This document shows, piece after piece, positions 25,613 through 33,340 of a stretch of 35,020 bases of DNA; within the stretch, counting starts at the first letter, position 1, and every line of letters begins with the position of its first letter. The DNA is taken from NCBI GenBank assembly GCA_003021975.1, contig PXRR01000053.1:34381-69400 (forward strand). Reading direction: 5' to 3'. The stretch comes from Halobacteriales archaeon QS_5_70_17. Lineage in GTDB: Archaea; Halobacteriota; Halobacteria; Halobacteriales; Haloarculaceae. The notes under the pieces were generated by a model. That model saw nothing but the letters and a program-made list of their open reading frames with translations, was not told the origin of the DNA and made no database searches. Both the position numbers and the translations under genes were made by a program.

Positions 25613-25667
25613 CACGATCGGTCCTTGCTTGTGCATAACTAACACCGTGTCGGGAGAGCGCGGGTGC

Positions 25668-26627
25668 ATGCGGACTGACTACTCACGATTCGCCGCCGTA
25701 CTGATCGCCGCCCTCGTCGTCGCCTCGTTCGGCGTGGCCACGGCGAGCGGACTCCCGCAGGCCGGGCCCGGTCAGAGTACGGGCGCGAGCGCCGAGGCTG
25801 CGGGCGCCGTCCAGGACGACGATAGCGATAACGACCCGCTGCGCGTCGTCGGTATCGACCTCGACCAGCGGACGGTAGCGCAGGGCGAGACCGTGACGGG
25901 CGAGGTGACGATATCGAACCGGGGCAGCGAGGCCGACACCAGCGACGTCGAGGTAACCTTCGGACAGTTCCTGGGAGAAGAGGGAGAGTTCGCGGGCAGA
26001 GCGGAGCACACGGCCACCCGCGAGGTGTCGCTCGACCCCGGCGAGGAGACGACTTTCGAGTTCGAACTCTCGACCGAGAACCTCCCGCCTTCCGACGCTC
26101 CCGCGGAGTACGGGGTCTTCGCCATGGTCGAGGAGGGCGGCCACATGGAGTTCACGGCCCTCGACGTCGTGCCCGGCGGTGACGGGACGGTCCACTACCA
26201 GGTCGACTTCATCCAGGGCACCAACCAGAACTACCTCGGGCCGGCGGGTGCGAACCAGTTGACGAACGCCTTCTACGGCGATCAGGACCGGCTGATCCGC
26301 TACCTCCACGGCTCGACCGACGAGGCCGTCACCCGCGGCGGGTCGCCGGGGCCGGACGCCCTCGCCGACGAGTACGACGACTGCGTCGACAGCGGTTACA
26401 TCTCCGTGAACAACGGCACCGCGTCGGTCACCTTTACGGTCGAGGAGGGCTGCGAACTGCGGCTGACGCTGGTGGCCTACGTCAAGCCGGGACCGGGGTT
26501 CGACGAGGCGTATCTCCAGCGGTCCTTCGACCGCGGCACGGAGGTCTTCGGACCGGGGACGCACACGCTGACGGCCCAGCTCCCGACGGAGGACAACTAC
26601 TCGGAGCTACGCCTGAGAGACTCGTAG
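25668..26627 (+). CDS. Secreted protein with CARDB-like domain, function unknown
   Basis: A 319-residue exported protein. Residues 1-28 form a Sec-type signal (MRTDYSRFAAVLIAALVVAS followed by an Ala-rich end), then an acidic, Gln/Gly/Ala-rich linker. At about residues 60-170 there is an Ig-like CARDB-type domain: VVGIDLDQRTVAQGETVTGE, VTISNRGSEADTSDVEV and SLDPGEETTFEFEL. The second half (VHYQVDFIQGTNQNYLGPAG, two cysteines in DDCVDS and EEGCELR, then LVAYVKPGPGFDE) is not recognised; the cysteines may form a disulphide. No anchor is seen at the end. A TATA-like GCATAACT lies about 30 nt upstream of the ATG. It stands alone between hisF and a small membrane protein. Confidence 0.75.
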   Translation: MRTDYSRFAAVLIAALVVASFGVATASGLPQAGPGQSTGASAEAAGAVQDDDSDNDPLRVVGIDLDQRTVAQGETVTGEVTISNRGSEADTSDVEVTFGQFLGEEGEFAGRAEHTATREVSLDPGEETTFEFELSTENLPPSDAPAEYGVFAMVEEGGHMEFTALDVVPGGDGTVHYQVDFIQGTNQNYLGPAGANQLTNAFYGDQDRLIRYLHGSTDEAVTRGGSPGPDALADEYDDCVDSGYISVNNGTASVTFTVEEGCELRLTLVAYVKPGPGFDEAYLQRSFDRGTEVFGPGTHTLTAQLPTEDNYSELRLRDS

Positions 26628-26749: not shown

Positions 26750-27001
26750 ATGGCCGAAGACAGCGCGGCGAGCGACCCGCGGACGAGCGAGGAGGGCGGC
26801 GCCGACGCGCCCGGCGAGAGCGAAGCGCTCGAGACCGACGACCACTCCGATCCCCACGAGCAGACGCCCGAACCCCGTCCGGACCACCGCCAGACCGCCC
26901 CGCAGGGACCGTACACGTCCCGACAGACCGGGATCGGCTCCCTCATCGTGGTCCTCGGGATGGTGCTCGTCTTCGTCGTCCCCGTCGTCCTGACGCTGTG
27001 A
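26750..27001 (+). CDS. Small acidic protein with one C-terminal membrane helix
   Basis: An 83-residue protein. The first 55 residues are highly acidic and low in complexity (Asp, Glu, Ser, Pro, His), then PYTSRQTGIG leads into a single hydrophobic helix SLIVVLGMVLVFVVPVVLTL at the very end. The helix-then-stop layout and the PYTSRxxGIG lead are typical of short haloarchaeal membrane proteins of unknown role. The start fits because upstream in-frame sequence is not acidic. No partner can be named; it is 122 nt after the secreted protein gene and 191 nt before the next gene. Confidence 0.7.
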   Translation: MAEDSAASDPRTSEEGGADAPGESEALETDDHSDPHEQTPEPRPDHRQTAPQGPYTSRQTGIGSLIVVLGMVLVFVVPVVLTL

Positions 27002-27192: not shown

Positions 27193-28434
27193 ATGGCCGA
27201 GGGACCGGAGTGGTTCGCGGTGGGGTTGCTCGTCGCCGCCTTTCTCCTCGTCGCGGGGACGGTCGGCGGGGTCACGTCGCCCTCGCCCGGGGAGACGTCC
27301 CCGCCGAGTTCTCACGCGGTGTCCGACGACCCGCTGCTCGTCGAACTGCGCGACGACGGGGAGCCCGCCCACCACCTCTGGCCGTACACCAGCAGGCGGA
27401 AGACCTTCGACAGCAGGACGCTGGGGATCAACGTCGTCGTCTACGAGGACCCCGTCATCGTCCGGCGGGCGATGGCCGGGGGGACCGCCATCGAGTGGAT
27501 CCCGGCCAACAACACGACGACCGACGCCGACGCCGAGACCCACTCTATCGAGATCGACGGGCGGGGGATCGCGTGGAGCGACGCCGAGGGCGCGGTGCGG
27601 TACACCTACGTCGAGACGAGCGACGGCGAGAAGCGGTGGCTGCGCGAACGCTTCCAGGTCCGGGACGGCCCCTACCTCGGCTCGCGGGACCACATCCGCG
27701 CCTACGGGGTCCGCGACGGCGGCTGGACGGCCATGCAGGCCCACACCGAACACTGGGACTGGTTCCGCCTGCGCCACAGCGTCTCGGGAGTGACGGACGC
27801 ACAGCAGCGCGTCGAGATGGACTTCATGGAGGCGCGGTTCGTCGACGACGTCGCCCGGAGCTACTACGGCAACGGCGACACCGCCGACGACGACGGCTGG
27901 GTGACGGTCGTCTCGCTGGACGGGCGGCTGGCGGTCCTGGGGGCGGTCCTGGGGGCCGTCGCCCTCCCCTCGCGGCGGGAACTCCGCGAGCGGTTCGACG
28001 TCACCGACCTCCGAGAGGTCGCCGACGCGCTCGCGCCGCTGCTCGTTCCCGGGGCCCTGTATCTCGGCGTCCGCCTCGGCGGAATCGCGCTGGAGACGAC
28101 CACCGGCGCGCCGCCGAAACTCATCGCCGCCACGCTCTACCCGGTGATCGCCGTCGGCGTCCCGGGGTTCGCGTTCGTCCTCCCGCGACGGCGGGCCCGG
28201 ATCACTGCCTTCGTGCTGGTCGCCGCCGGCCTCAGCGCCGCGTTCTTCGCGGACTACCTCCTGTTGGGCATCGACGTGCTCTCGCTGCGGTCGATCCACT
28301 ACCGCGGCGCCGTGGTGCTCTCGGCGGGGCTGGTCGCCGCCGGCGGCGCGGACGGACGCGACCGCGAGATCGCCGCCACGGGCGTCGTCTGCTGGTTAGC
28401 GACCCTCGTCGCCCCGCTGGTCGGCGCGGTCTGA
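27193..28434 (+). CDS. Membrane protein with large extracytoplasmic domain (distantly LssY_C-like), unknown function
   Basis: A 413-residue protein. An N-terminal helix (about 6-27, WFAVGLLVAAFLLVAGTVGG) anchors a domain of about 200 residues that is outside the membrane: LWPYTSRRKTFDSRTLGINV, IAWSDAEGAVRYTYVETSDG, RDHIRAYGVRDGGWTAMQAH, then WDWFRLRHSV and QRVEMDFMEARFVDDV. From about residue 240 there are six or so further hydrophobic segments. The middle domain recalls the LssY C-terminal domain, which in bacteria is often fused to PAP2 or DedA membrane domains; I could not verify this. That resemblance is notable because a PAP2-type phosphatase gene lies two genes downstream. An in-frame GTG at 27187 is an alternative start. 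Confidence 0.7.
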   Translation: MAEGPEWFAVGLLVAAFLLVAGTVGGVTSPSPGETSPPSSHAVSDDPLLVELRDDGEPAHHLWPYTSRRKTFDSRTLGINVVVYEDPVIVRRAMAGGTAIEWIPANNTTTDADAETHSIEIDGRGIAWSDAEGAVRYTYVETSDGEKRWLRERFQVRDGPYLGSRDHIRAYGVRDGGWTAMQAHTEHWDWFRLRHSVSGVTDAQQRVEMDFMEARFVDDVARSYYGNGDTADDDGWVTVVSLDGRLAVLGAVLGAVALPSRRELRERFDVTDLREVADALAPLLVPGALYLGVRLGGIALETTTGAPPKLIAATLYPVIAVGVPGFAFVLPRRRARITAFVLVAAGLSAAFFADYLLLGIDVLSLRSIHYRGAVVLSAGLVAAGGADGRDREIAATGVVCWLATLVAPLVGAV

Positions 28435-28453
28435 GACCGCACGACCACACGAG

Positions 28454-28460
28454 TTATATT
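28454..28460 (+). promoter_or_regulatory. TATA box of the permuted binding-protein/PAP2 operon
   Basis: TTATATT in GAGTTATATTTCC. It would place transcription start near 28484, leaving a leader of about 23 nt that contains GGAG at 28496-28499, seven bases before the GTG at 28507. Confidence 0.6.
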
Positions 28461-28506
28461 TCCAGGTGATCTCGTTTCGTGACGGTCGACGATTCGGAGT
28501 CCATCT

Positions 28507-30312
28507 GTGGGTACTGTACACATGGAATTGAAGACGCAGACGACGACGCGCCGAGCCCTCCTTCGCGGCGCCGCGAGCCTCTCGCTCGCAGCGACGGCCG
28601 GGTGCGTGGGCGACCTCCGGAACGTGGTCGGTCGCGACCAGTCCGACCGCGTCTCGCTGCGCGTCAAGACGCTCCCGACTGACTCGGACCCCCACGCGAT
28701 CCACGTGGCCCGCCGGCTCACGAACGCGCTCGAGGCGGTGGGCGCGGAGGTGGAACTGCTCCCGATGGTCGAGGAGGAACTCTACCGCGACGTGCTGATC
28801 AACCACCAGTTCGACCTCTACGTCGCGCCGTTTCACGGCGAGCGGGACCCGGACTTCCTCCGGCCGCTGTTTCACTCCCGGTACGCCAGCGAGCGCGGCT
28901 GGCAGAACCCTTTCGGCTACTCCGATCTCGAACTCGACGACCTCCTGGAGCGCCAGCGCCGGACCGCCGGCGACACGCGCCGGTCGATCGTCGCAGACGC
29001 CCAGACGGCCGTCGCGGAGGCCCAGCCTTGCACCGTCGTCGCGTTCGCCGACGAGATCCTCGCGGCCCGCGACGACCGGTTCGCCGGCTGGCGGCACGTG
29101 CGCCCGACGCGTTCGCTGGCCTACCTGGCGGTCCGATCCGTCGACGGGGCCGGTGAGGCCGGCGAGGCCGACGGGCAGTCGACTCTGACCGCGCTGTTGC
29201 GCGACAAGCGGCCGACGCGCAACCTCAATCCGATCGCCGTCGAGCACCGCCGCCGGGGGACCGTCACTGGACTGCTCTACGACGCCCTCGGGACGTGGTA
29301 CGGCGGCGACGTCGAACCGTGGCTGGCCGCCGACTGGCGCTGGGACGTGCACGACGACGGCGGCCAGCACGCCACTATCCCGCTGCGGGAGGCGCGGTGG
29401 CACGACGGCGAACCGGTGACGGCCGGCGACGTCGCGTTCACCTACCGGTTCCTCTCCGACACCTCTCTCGGCCGGGCGGACTCTCCGGTCCCGACCGAGC
29501 GCTTCCGCGGGGAGGCCTCGCTCGTCGAGGGGGTCTCGGCGATCGACGAGCGGACCGTCGGGATCGCCTTCGGGGAGACCACCAAGGCGGTCGCCCGGCG
29601 GGCGCTGACGGTGCCGATCCTCCCCGAACACGTCTGGAGCGAGCGGACGGGGTCGGCGTCGGTCGCCGGCGTCGAGGTCGACGAGGGGACGACGACCGCC
29701 CTCGTCACCGACAACCTCGAGGCCGTCGGCAGCGGCCCCTTCGAGGTCCGAGAGGTCGAGACCGACCGCAGGGTCGTCCTGACGGCCGCCGCCGAGCACT
29801 TCTCGGAATCGATCGGCGGTTCACTCGGGACGGTCGTCGGCGCCGTCCCCTACGATCGACTGGTCTTCCGGCCGCTGCCCTCCGACGAGGTCGCCGTCGA
29901 GACGCTCGCGGCCGGCGACGCCGACGTCGTCGCGAGTTCGCTCGGTCCGGGCGCCGTCCCCCAGGTGGGCTACGCCGACGCCGTGAACCTGATCGTCAAG
30001 CCCTCCCGGACGTTCTACCACGTCGGGTACAACACGCGGCGGGCGCCGCTGTCGAACCCCCGATTCCGGCGTGCGGTCGCGCGCCTGATCGACAAGGGGG
30101 CCGTCGTCGACGACGTCTTCGACGGCTACTCCCGCCCCACCGCCAGCCCCGTCGCGGACCGGGACTGGATCGCGCCCGCCCTCGAGTGGTCGGGGGAGGA
30201 CCCGGTGCTCCCGTTCGCGGGCGAGAACGGGGAACTCGACGTCGAGAGCGCCCGCCAGGAGTTCGTCGACGCGGGCTACAGCTACCACGACGGCGGGCTC
30301 TACGCCCGGTGA
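28507..30312 (+). CDS. Substrate-binding lipoprotein of the SBP_bac_5 (peptide/nickel) family with circularly permuted domain order
   Basis: A 601-residue Tat lipoprotein: twin arginine at residues 15-16 (TTTRRALLRGAASLSL) and lipobox Cys33. After the signal, residues 49-200 match what is normally the C-terminal part of the family: VSLRVKTLPTDSDPHAIHVA, LINHQFDLYVAPFHGERDPD and NPFGYSDLELDDLLERQRRT. Following a Gly/Ala/Glu linker (about 211-224), the usual N-terminal part appears: STLTALLRDKRPTRNLNPI, LYDALGTWYGGDVEPWLAAD and LREARWHDGEPVTAGDVAFT. The protein ends at ARQEFVDAGYSYHDGG, exactly where normal members go on into the segment found here at the N-terminus. The GTG start fits a GGAG ribosome site seven bases before it; ATG at 28522 is the alternative. 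It overlaps the PAP2 gene by GTGA. No ABC permease or ATPase is adjacent. Confidence 0.88.
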   Translation: MGTVHMELKTQTTTRRALLRGAASLSLAATAGCVGDLRNVVGRDQSDRVSLRVKTLPTDSDPHAIHVARRLTNALEAVGAEVELLPMVEEELYRDVLINHQFDLYVAPFHGERDPDFLRPLFHSRYASERGWQNPFGYSDLELDDLLERQRRTAGDTRRSIVADAQTAVAEAQPCTVVAFADEILAARDDRFAGWRHVRPTRSLAYLAVRSVDGAGEAGEADGQSTLTALLRDKRPTRNLNPIAVEHRRRGTVTGLLYDALGTWYGGDVEPWLAADWRWDVHDDGGQHATIPLREARWHDGEPVTAGDVAFTYRFLSDTSLGRADSPVPTERFRGEASLVEGVSAIDERTVGIAFGETTKAVARRALTVPILPEHVWSERTGSASVAGVEVDEGTTTALVTDNLEAVGSGPFEVREVETDRRVVLTAAAEHFSESIGGSLGTVVGAVPYDRLVFRPLPSDEVAVETLAAGDADVVASSLGPGAVPQVGYADAVNLIVKPSRTFYHVGYNTRRAPLSNPRFRRAVARLIDKGAVVDDVFDGYSRPTASPVADRDWIAPALEWSGEDPVLPFAGENGELDVESARQEFVDAGYSYHDGGLYAR

Positions 30313-31181
30313 TCCCCGTGCAGTTGGGCGACGTCCCCGTCGGACTGCTCGCCGTCCTCCTGCAGGTCGTCGCCATCTGCGGGGCGATGCTGGCGGCGGC
30401 GGCGCTGCTCGTCGTCGGACCCCGCCGACTCGTCCGGACTGGCCGGGAGGTCCCCGATCGACTGCGGGCGGTCGCACCCAGCCTCGTCCTGCTCGGCGCC
30501 GTCCTGCTGGTGAACAAGGTCGCCCGCGACTACGGGCCGGGGGTCTCCTGGACCATCGGCTGGAACGTCACCGGGATCATCTTCGGGATCGAGGGGACCT
30601 TCGTCGCGTGGGTCCAGTCGCTTGCGACGCCGCCGCTGACGGCGTACTTCTCGTTCGCGTACGTCTACGGCTACGTGTTCCTGCTGGTCTTCCCGCTGAT
30701 CGCGTACCTCTCGCTGTCGGACCCGGACCCGCTGCGCCGGACGGCGGTGGCCTACGCGCTCAACTACGCCATCGGACTGGCCTGTTACGTCGTCTTCGTC
30801 TCCTACGGGCCGCGCAACCTGATCCCGGACCTCGTCGATCCGTTGCTGTACAGCAACTACCCGACCTCGCGGCTGCTCACGCAGGAGGTGAACCGGAACA
30901 CGAACGTCTTCCCCTCGCTGCACACCTCGCTGTCGGTGACCGTCGCCCTGCTGGCCCGGGAGACCCGCGATCGCTACCCGCTGTGGACGCCGATCGCGGT
31001 CGCGCTGGCCGCGAGCATCGTGATCGCGACCGTCTACCTGGGCATCCACTGGGGGATCGACGTGCTCGCCGGGATCGCGCTCGCAGTCGGCAGCGTCAGG
31101 GGCGCGCGCGCCCTCGTCGACCAGAACGCCCCCGGCGAGCGCCCGGCGTGGCTGGACGCGCTCGTCGCCCGCTTCGGGTAG
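30309..31181 (+). CDS. PAP2 superfamily phosphatase/phosphotransferase, integral membrane
   Basis: A 290-residue protein with about six to seven hydrophobic helices. The PAP2 motifs are in order: KVARDYGPG (first motif, Lys/Arg), FPSLHTSLSVTVALL (second motif with His) and HWGIDVLAGIAL (third motif with His and Asp). The FPSLHT and HWGxDVLAG forms resemble the PAP2_3/inositol phosphoryl-transferase branch (Aur1-like) rather than classical PgpB. It probably hydrolyses or transfers a phosphate group of a lipid at the outer face of the membrane. The GTG at 30309 overlaps the stop of the binding-protein gene (GTGA); a second GTG at 30318 is possible. It is convergent with purL, with 18 nt between. 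Confidence 0.88.
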   Translation: MIPVQLGDVPVGLLAVLLQVVAICGAMLAAAALLVVGPRRLVRTGREVPDRLRAVAPSLVLLGAVLLVNKVARDYGPGVSWTIGWNVTGIIFGIEGTFVAWVQSLATPPLTAYFSFAYVYGYVFLLVFPLIAYLSLSDPDPLRRTAVAYALNYAIGLACYVVFVSYGPRNLIPDLVDPLLYSNYPTSRLLTQEVNRNTNVFPSLHTSLSVTVALLARETRDRYPLWTPIAVALAASIVIATVYLGIHWGIDVLAGIALAVGSVRGARALVDQNAPGERPAWLDALVARFG

Positions 31182-31199: not shown

Positions 31200-33340
31200 C
31201 TAGTCGAGTTCCCGTTCGAGGACCCTCCGCAGGTCGCGGATCTCCGCGGCGTCGTAGGAGAGGTGCTCCCCGCCGACCGTCAGTGCGAGCCGTCCGGACC
31301 TGTCGGCCTTGCCGACGGCGGCCACCGGCGCGATTCCCCCGAAGGCCGCCCGGACCGCCCCGGGGTCGGTCGTCTCGATCACCGCGCGTCCCGGGCGCTC
31401 GTTGAAGAGTAGCTCCGCCGGGGAGGCGGCGCCCGCCAGTTCGACCGCCGCGCCCGCCTCGCCGACCATCTCGGCGAGGGTCACCGCGAGGCCGCCGTGG
31501 CTGACGTCGTGGACGGCGAGGGTCCCCTCGTCGGTCGCCGCGTCGGCGAGCGCGTCGACGAGCGCCGGGGGGCGTCGGGCCGATCGGTCCCGTCCTCGGC
31601 CGCGTCGGCCAGCGCCGGGTCGCCGACGACCAGCACCGTCCCGCTGCCGTCGAATGCCGCCGACGGGGCGTCGTAGCCCGGCCGCGTCCCGACCATCGCC
31701 ACCGTCGGGGTCGGCGGGATCGGGCCGCTGGCGGAGTCGTTGTACAGCGAGACGTTACCGCCGACGACCGGCACGTCGAGGTCGGCGCACATCTCGGCGA
31801 GGCCGTCGACGACCGCCCGGAAGCCGCCGTAGACCTCCGGCTTCTCGGGGTTACCGCCGTTGAGGCAGTCGACTGCCGCGAGCGGCCGCGCCCCGACCGA
31901 CGCGAGGTTCGTCGCGTTCTCCAGGGCGACGGCGCGCGCGCCGTCGTAGGGGGCGGCGGTCGTCCAGTTCGGGTCCGCGCCGGCCGACAGCGCCAGGCCC
32001 ACGCCGGTTCCCTCGACCGCCCCGGGGACGGCCTCCCGGAGCGCGAGCAGGGCCGCGTCGTCGCCGGGGGGAACGGCCGTCCGCATGCCGACCTCGTGGT
32101 CGTACTGGCGGTAGACCCAGCGCTTGCTCGCGGGGGAGGGGCTGGCGACGACGGCCTCGAAGGCCGTCGCGACGGCCGGCGCGGGGTCGGGCAGGGCCCG
32201 GTCGGGCCGGGTCGGCTCCTCGCTCGCGAGGTCGTTGGTCGGCGCACCGTCGGCGAGGAACTCGGCGGGCGCGTCGACGACCGTCTCGCGCTCGCCCTCC
32301 CCGCCGGCGAACGTGCAGACGTAGTTGCCCTCGGTCACCTCGCCGATGACCGAACAGCCGAGGTCGAACCGCTCGGCCAGTTCCCGCACGCGGTCGACGT
32401 CCCCCGGGCGGACCTCGTAGCACATCCGCTCCTGGGACTCCGCGAGCAGGATCTCGAGGGCGTTCATGTTCGGTTCGCGCTGATGGACCCGGTCGAGATC
32501 GATCCGCGCGCCCAGTCCGCCCTTCGCGACGAGTTCCGAGGAGGCGCCCCCGAGGCCGGCCGCGCCGAGGTCGCGGGCCGACTCGACGAGCGACTCGTCG
32601 ATCAGCGCCTCGTTGCACTCGATCAGGCGCTTCTCGGCGTAGGGGTCGCCGACCTGCACCGCCGGGCGGTCCTCGGTCTCGGCGTCCTCGCCGAGGTCCT
32701 CGCTGGCGAAACTCGCCCCGCCGAGGCCGTCCCGGCCGGTCGCGTTGCCGACGAGCACCAGCTCGTTCCCCGGGCGCTTCGCCTCGGCGGTGACCAGCCG
32801 GTCCGGCGAGAGCAGGCCGACGCAGGCGACGTTCACCAGCGGGTTTCCCTCGTAGCGCTCGTGGAAGGCGACGCTGCCCGCGACGGTGGGGACGCCGATG
32901 GAGTTGCCGTAGTCCGCGATGCCCTCGACGACCCCCTCGAAGAGGTACCGGGAGTGCTCGCGGTCGAACTCGCCGAAGTACAGCGAGTCCGCCAGCGCGA
33001 TCGGGTACGCGCCCATGCTCATGGTGTCCCGGACGATGCCGCCGACGCCGGTCGCCGCGCCGTCGTAGGGGTCGACGTACGAGGGGTGGTTATGGCTCTC
33101 GACGCCGAGAGTCACGTAGACGTCGTCGTCGCGACAGGGGACGGCGACGACGGCGGCGTCGTCGCCCGGTCCGACGACGACCCGCTCGCTCTCGCTCTCG
33201 AAGGCGGTCAGCAGGGGCCGCGAGGAACGGTACGCGCAGTGCTCGCTCCAGAGGTTCTCGAAGAGCGCCGCCTCGGCCGGGGTCGGCTCCCGTCCGAGCT
33301 CCTCGTCGACGAGCGCGCGGTCGTCCGGTGAGAGGCTCAT
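31200..33340 (-). CDS. purL: Phosphoribosylformylglycinamidine synthase subunit PurL, with one-base frameshift
   Basis: Encodes the synthetase subunit that converts FGAR to FGAM in purine synthesis (with PurS and PurQ). From the ATG at 33340 the frame has the family blocks [55 protein letters not shown] and [20 protein letters not shown]. At about 31573 it goes out of frame (reading [10 protein letters not shown]) and stops at 31481. The neighbouring frame continues the protein perfectly ([34 protein letters not shown]) to the stop at 31200-31202. The change falls in a run of six G (31567-31572; C in the gene sense); one more base restores a protein of 713 residues, the normal archaeal length. 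Such runs are common sites of sequencing error, so the gene is probably functional. Confidence 0.92.

Follow-up and report, generated by a model that had tools for sequence, protein, structure and literature searches.

The window analysed here is a stretch of 35,020 nucleotides from Halobacteriales archaeon QS_5_70_17 (contig PXRR01000053.1), whose genome assembly is 73% complete and consists of 78 contigs. Three consecutive genes on the forward strand of the window were located exactly where the original prediction had placed them. Gene A (27193–28434, ATG start) encodes a membrane protein of 413 amino acids, gene B (28522–30312, ATG start) a binding lipoprotein of 596 amino acids, and gene C (30309–31181, GTG start) a PAP2-type membrane enzyme of 290 amino acids. 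The stop codon of B and the start codon of C share four bases, GTGA (30309–30312, forward strand). This coupling, noticed in the original prediction, recurs across relatives – in most of them the two genes overlap or adjoin, with gaps mostly of −4 or of −1 to +6.

The predicted TATA box ahead of B is also present, as the TATA-like sequence TTATAT at 28454–28459 on the forward strand. Of 124 relatives, 46 carry such a box 5’ of B, while 12.5 were expected from shuffling (maximum 22), and this enrichment makes it a trait of the family. In the relatives the box is almost always 30–39 nt ahead of the start codon; the spacing in the window, 68 nt to the ATG of B, is longer. No TATA-like box was found 5’ of C in any of 116 relatives. 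The promoter pattern, a box at B and none at C, fits transcription of B and C as a single transcript.

The three genes are flanked by what we take, from their sequences, to be hisF and purL. The purL gene (31200–33340, reverse strand) is seemingly split in two: a 619-aa frame runs out into unrelated low-complexity sequence, and another frame, of 94 aa, resembles the C-terminal end of purL. This points to a frameshift, or to an error of assembly, at about 31.5–31.6 kb. Two other genes lie 5’ of A on the forward strand: one for a protein that is predicted to be secreted and shows weak CARDB-like similarity (25629–26627) and one for a DUF7550 protein (26750–27001). Neither turned up as a partner that is conserved with the module.

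A circularly permuted binding lipoprotein

B belongs to the SBP_bac_5 family of DppA/OppA-type binding proteins by Pfam search, structure comparison and profile alignment. It matched PF00496 with 155.5 bits (Pfam cut-off 32.4), and all 60 of its relatives matched SBP_bac_5 at E 1e-3. The N terminus carries the signal of a Tat lipoprotein, reaching from a twin-arginine pair at residues 10–11 to the lipobox cysteine at residue 28 (28549–28605, forward strand); R10, R11, G27 and C28 are invariant in the 60 relatives.

The native protein does not follow the N-to-C order of the canonical fold. Its first piece (residues ~45–205; 28654–29136, forward strand) is the C-terminal part of a canonical SBP_5 protein, and its second piece (residues ~219–596; 29176–30309, forward strand) is the N-terminal and middle part. 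Alignment to PDB 5isu paired residues 211–545 of B with 9–307 and residues 66–195 with 360–486; the profile of the 60 relatives gave the same swapped order, with positions 62–197 corresponding to 353–485. The pieces are in identical order in all 60 relatives, which align end to end. In the native sequence, residues 264–592 cover only positions 2–284 of the 368 in PF00496. When the N-terminal piece was moved to the end of the protein and the sequence was rescored, a single continuous match to positions 2–364 was obtained, and the score rose to 168 bits. An AlphaFold2 model of B (pLDDT 89) matched SBP_5 structures with a Foldseek E-value of 2.6e-14. Residues 214–596 of the model superposed on the N-terminal two-thirds of these structures with Z-scores of ~20–22 in VIA (21.9 for residues 2–327 of PDB 4oeu). 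B is thus a genuine circular permutant of the SBP_bac_5 fold, and the permuted lipoprotein of the original prediction is borne out on both counts, by the continuous match after reordering and by the invariant lipoprotein signal.

Another natural circular permutant among membrane-tethered binding lipoproteins is TpMglB-2 (Tp0684) of Treponema pallidum, a glucose-binding protein whose authors suggest that tethering favoured permutation and a new N terminus (PMC4990184). Unlike B, it has a type I (cluster B) fold rather than that of SBP_5, presumably works with a sugar ABC transporter, and has no link to a PAP2 enzyme. In B, by analogy, the permutation shifts the anchor to a different part of the clamp, and the cleft could in this way face a new partner.

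The membrane enzyme encoded by C

C matched the PAP2_3 profile PF14378 with 72 bits (cut-off 27; E 7e-20) and the PAP2 profile PF01569 with 38.3 bits (cut-off 27.2; E 1e-9). The catalytic C2 and C3 residues are in place: the histidine of a PSLH motif (H205), H247 and D251 are invariant in 54 relatives. The assignment of C to the PAP2 enzymes in the original prediction therefore stands, since both cut-offs are passed and the catalytic residues do not vary. Its sequence relatives with solved structures are PgpB (7e-7), LpxE (1e-3), AUR1 (3e-3) and YodM.

Compared with the PAP2_3, PgpB, LpxE and AUR1 proteins, with which it has the fold, the PSLH motif and the invariant histidine and aspartate in common, C is unusual in three respects. 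The classical C3 motif of PAP2 enzymes is SRxxxxxHxxxD; in C the arginine is replaced, with ST(M/V)YLGIHW in the alignment and STMYLGIHWxxD in the window. The classical C1 motif was not found in C, where YGPRN is conserved instead. Lastly, C is coupled to a binding protein. With the C3 arginine replaced, hydrolysis and an AUR1-like phosphotransferase chemistry are equally likely, and C is best described as a PAP2_3-type membrane phosphatase or phosphotransferase.

A new family of membrane proteins

A consists of an N-terminal helix (residues 5–28), an ectodomain (residues ~43–245) and C-terminal membrane helices (residues 273–409). The protein of the window had no match in Pfam. Fourteen residues are invariant in its 45 homologues: N80, W128, R136, W149, G159, Y161, R165, H167, R169, Q182, H184, D189, F191 and H195. 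An AlphaFold2 model (pLDDT 80) gave no significant fold match, with nothing below E 0.6 in Foldseek; several chains of the START/SRPBCC lipid-binding fold aligned to the ectodomain by VIA-align with Z-scores of 3.5–4.1 (2lgh, 4xrw, 4xrt and 2ffs), which is noise level.

The original prediction likened A to LssY_C, and the profile search, a custom HMM and a profile comparison all went against this. The PF14067 search that it had proposed gave no match for A at the cut-off of 25 bits, the consensus sequence of the family had no LssY_C match, and a scan of 196 genomes from the phylum found no match above the cut-off. Among the 45 members of A, three gave LssY_C matches (best E 0.014), and no other Pfam family was matched by more than one of them. 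A match to PF14067 in genome G362 was discarded, as that protein looks instead like a PAPS-reductase-type protein, which implies that PF14067 matches of 18 bits are noise. As a reference set, 16 genuine LssY_C domains were collected from plasmid-encoded proteins of bacteria in which the domains follow the order VTT-PAP2-LssY_C. The HMM built from them scored the ectodomains of A at −0.1 bits at best, below the 5.5 bits reached by shuffled sequences, and hhalign gave a probability of 0.1–0.2%. On this sequence evidence the identification of A as an LssY_C protein is rejected; a lack of profile similarity was one of the two outcomes that the original prediction had named as refuting it. The 16 domains represent one proteobacterial branch, and a remote tie of A to another branch is for this reason possible.

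Other archaea do encode relatives of the A ectodomain that are predicted to be secreted, at 23–67 bits compared with at most 7.5 for shuffled sequences. These stand-alone ectodomains are found in non-halobacterial archaea of the phylum, all on the reverse strand: L218 (5767–6315), L219 (5805–6626) and L220 (3885–4766 and 5994–6875). They have no significant Pfam match. Each of these genes adjoins a gene for a small multi-helix membrane protein, and Reprolysin-like metalloproteases are encoded near those of L218 and L220. An origin of A from such a pair, an ectodomain and a separate membrane protein, was considered and discarded: the membrane parts match no better than shuffled sequences.

Linkage and co-occurrence of the three genes

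In 107 of 108 loci, an HMM search located C directly 3’ of B. A lies directly 5’ of B in 38 of the 108, many of these loci being short, and is often encoded away from B and C. The presence of A nevertheless follows that of B closely. Among 195 genomes of the order, 102 have both A and B, six have A only, seven have B only, and 80 have neither (Fisher 1.5e-38, with shared ancestry only partly corrected). For B and C the distribution is 108 genomes with both, 1 and 0 with a single one of the two, and 86 with neither. Fisher values for co-occurrence range from 1e-37 to 1e-55, with the same partial correction for shared ancestry. A second sample, of 392 genomes from the phylum, had A in all 50 genomes that carry B; the only cases of A without B were distant ectodomains in three non-halobacterial archaea.

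The same picture holds at a finer scale. All 27 genomes of the family to which the window belongs are concordant for A, B and C, and in each of the four genera of this family with mixed presence the three genes are jointly present or jointly absent. The probability of an identical subset arising by chance is 7e-4. Shared ancestry by itself can hardly account for joint presence and joint absence that recur in this way. The conserved neighbourhood that the original prediction anticipated is found for B and C in nearly all loci and for A as a near-perfect co-occurrence, with direct adjacency in about a third of loci. The module is patchy, occurring in about half of the order; genera that carry it include Haloferax and Haloarcula. 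Beside A, or beside B and C, no further partner cluster recurred, apart from a small protein that adjoins A at seven loci.

Proposed function

The genome of the window encodes five SBP_5 proteins. Four of them have the canonical profile order and are each encoded beside a DppB-type permease; B alone has neither the order nor the permease. No homologue of DppB or DppC was found near B in 100 B loci of other genomes. B thus lacks the genomic mark of the substrate-binding proteins of ABC transporters, a permease gene next to its own, and on the best reading it has apparently left transport and is no longer an uptake protein.

A, B and C probably constitute a haloarchaeal envelope system in which B is a ligand clamp, C is its lipid-phosphate enzyme partner, and A is a third component. 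B would most likely be a membrane-tethered, permuted SBP_5 clamp with no ABC transporter of its own, binding an extracytoplasmic ligand that it would pass to the co-translated C, or whose binding would switch C on; B and C would be in physical contact. PAP2 enzymes of this kind have outward-facing active sites, so that of C would be exposed on the outside of the cytoplasmic membrane. The PAP2 fold of C is the reason for assigning it a lipid phosphate as substrate, and C may hydrolyse or transfer the phosphate of a polyprenyl or dolichyl phosphate or diphosphate, or of a phospholipid head group. A, with its ectodomain and membrane helices, may work with B and C even where it is encoded elsewhere, a role suggested by its co-occurrence with them. 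A more specific version is put forward only tentatively: the permuted, transporter-less B might be the receptor or loader of an outward-facing lipid phosphatase or phosphotransferase and might form with A a three-part machine for recycling lipid carriers or editing head groups. The original prediction had placed such a function at the outer membrane face. The lipid-phosphate part of this idea is retained, and the site should read the outer face of the cytoplasmic membrane because, to our knowledge, haloarchaea have no outer membrane.

It is unlikely that B is still an uptake protein, serving a Dpp-type ABC transporter in trans while C dephosphorylates surface nutrients before or after their capture. 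The modelled SBP_5 clamp of B is complete but for the rearrangement of its pieces, the genome encodes four Dpp-type permeases, and some SBP_5 proteins bind phosphorylated sugars – AccA, which binds agrocinopine and glucose-2-phosphate, is among the fold matches of B. However, every permease gene already has an adjacent canonical binding protein, no permease lies near B in any of the 100 loci, and the co-occurrence of B with the membrane protein A would be left unexplained.

Another reading, which we regard as doubtful, would make A a distant member of LssY_C and the module a split archaeal counterpart of the bacterial DedA-PAP2-LssY_C fusions, acting in polyprenyl-phosphate recycling. The fusion of these domains in bacteria, as the original prediction stated, was seen in six plasmid-encoded proteins (in the order VTT-PAP2-LssY_C), and they likewise join PAP2 to a domain without an assigned role. 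DedA and PAP2 proteins have been linked with undecaprenyl phosphate recycling (PMC9876793). Three members of A gave the marginal LssY_C matches described above, and three motifs can be picked out by eye in the same order in A and LssY_C: a hydrophobic strand followed by G..L..W; R-x-H/V-I/L-R-L-W/Y; and W-x(3)-H/S-x-E. This correspondence is loose, though, and does not count as evidence. The profile, HMM and hhalign results for A speak against the idea, no DedA-type (VTT) gene was identified in the module, and the fusions have no counterpart of B.

A third reading, with B purely sensing a ligand and C as its effector or a passenger, so that the pair reports an environmental signal and carries out no lipid chemistry, is improbable. 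Tethered binding proteins without transporters serve as sensors in other systems, and the patchy distribution agrees with an accessory function; against it, the catalytic residues of C are invariant, and no regulator gene is conserved beside B and C in 40 neighbourhoods. That the genes are chance neighbours with no functional link is hardly credible, even though many genomes encode A away from B and C, since the conserved order of B and C already refutes it for this pair and the co-occurrence of the three genes is far beyond chance.

Comparison with known systems

B has the fold, sequence family and lipoprotein signal of the SBP_bac_5 transport proteins (PF00496; DppA, OppA, NikZ and AppA). 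It differs from them in being permuted, in having no permease nearby and in being co-translated with a PAP2 enzyme. A closer functional parallel to the envelope system proposed here may be LpqW (2grv), a lipoprotein of mycobacteria and corynebacteria that is among the fold matches of B (Z 19.7). In place of transport, LpqW controls a mannosyltransferase step of lipoglycan synthesis at the membrane (PMC7261415). By analogy, it could be a precedent for B acting on a membrane enzyme rather than in transport, the fold being what the two have in common. B is permuted while LpqW is not, the partner of B is a PAP2 enzyme rather than a mannosyltransferase, and transport binding proteins resemble B at least as closely as LpqW does.

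No description of a permuted SBP_5 protein or of the A-B-C module was found in the open-licence literature, nor was a described archaeal equivalent of a three-part lipid machine. B and C come from known families and A from a new one, and the combination appears to be undescribed. In plasmid records B is named “ABC transporter substrate-binding protein” and A “hypothetical protein”, automatic names that have hidden a widespread system. B offers a natural circular permutant of SBP_5 and a binding protein that has apparently gone from transport, and the module may carry out archaeal lipid-phosphate chemistry on the outer leaflet of the membrane. The coordinated presence or absence of three genes in about half of the haloarchaea provides a comparative handle, and the genera Haloferax and Haloarcula include genetically tractable species.

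Variation among loci

A few loci depart from the common arrangement. The single B locus of the 108 without C behind it is in Halogeometricum pallidum (L155, 3929–5740); another B locus in this species (L144) does have C. Tandem copies of B flank a C gene in L076 (G055:C1:214346–218843) and in further genomes of family f7. The small protein beside A, of ~80 amino acids with hydrophobic stretches, is encoded divergently next to A genes that lie away from B and C (L084, L085, L087, L088, L093, L094 and L095). In three genomes (G023, G054 and G070) A lies beside a paralogue of C without B. In two others A is truncated (G044:C8:57590–57811 and G110:C1:1555933–1556253) while the adjoining B and C are apparently complete, which indicates that A can decay while B and C stay.
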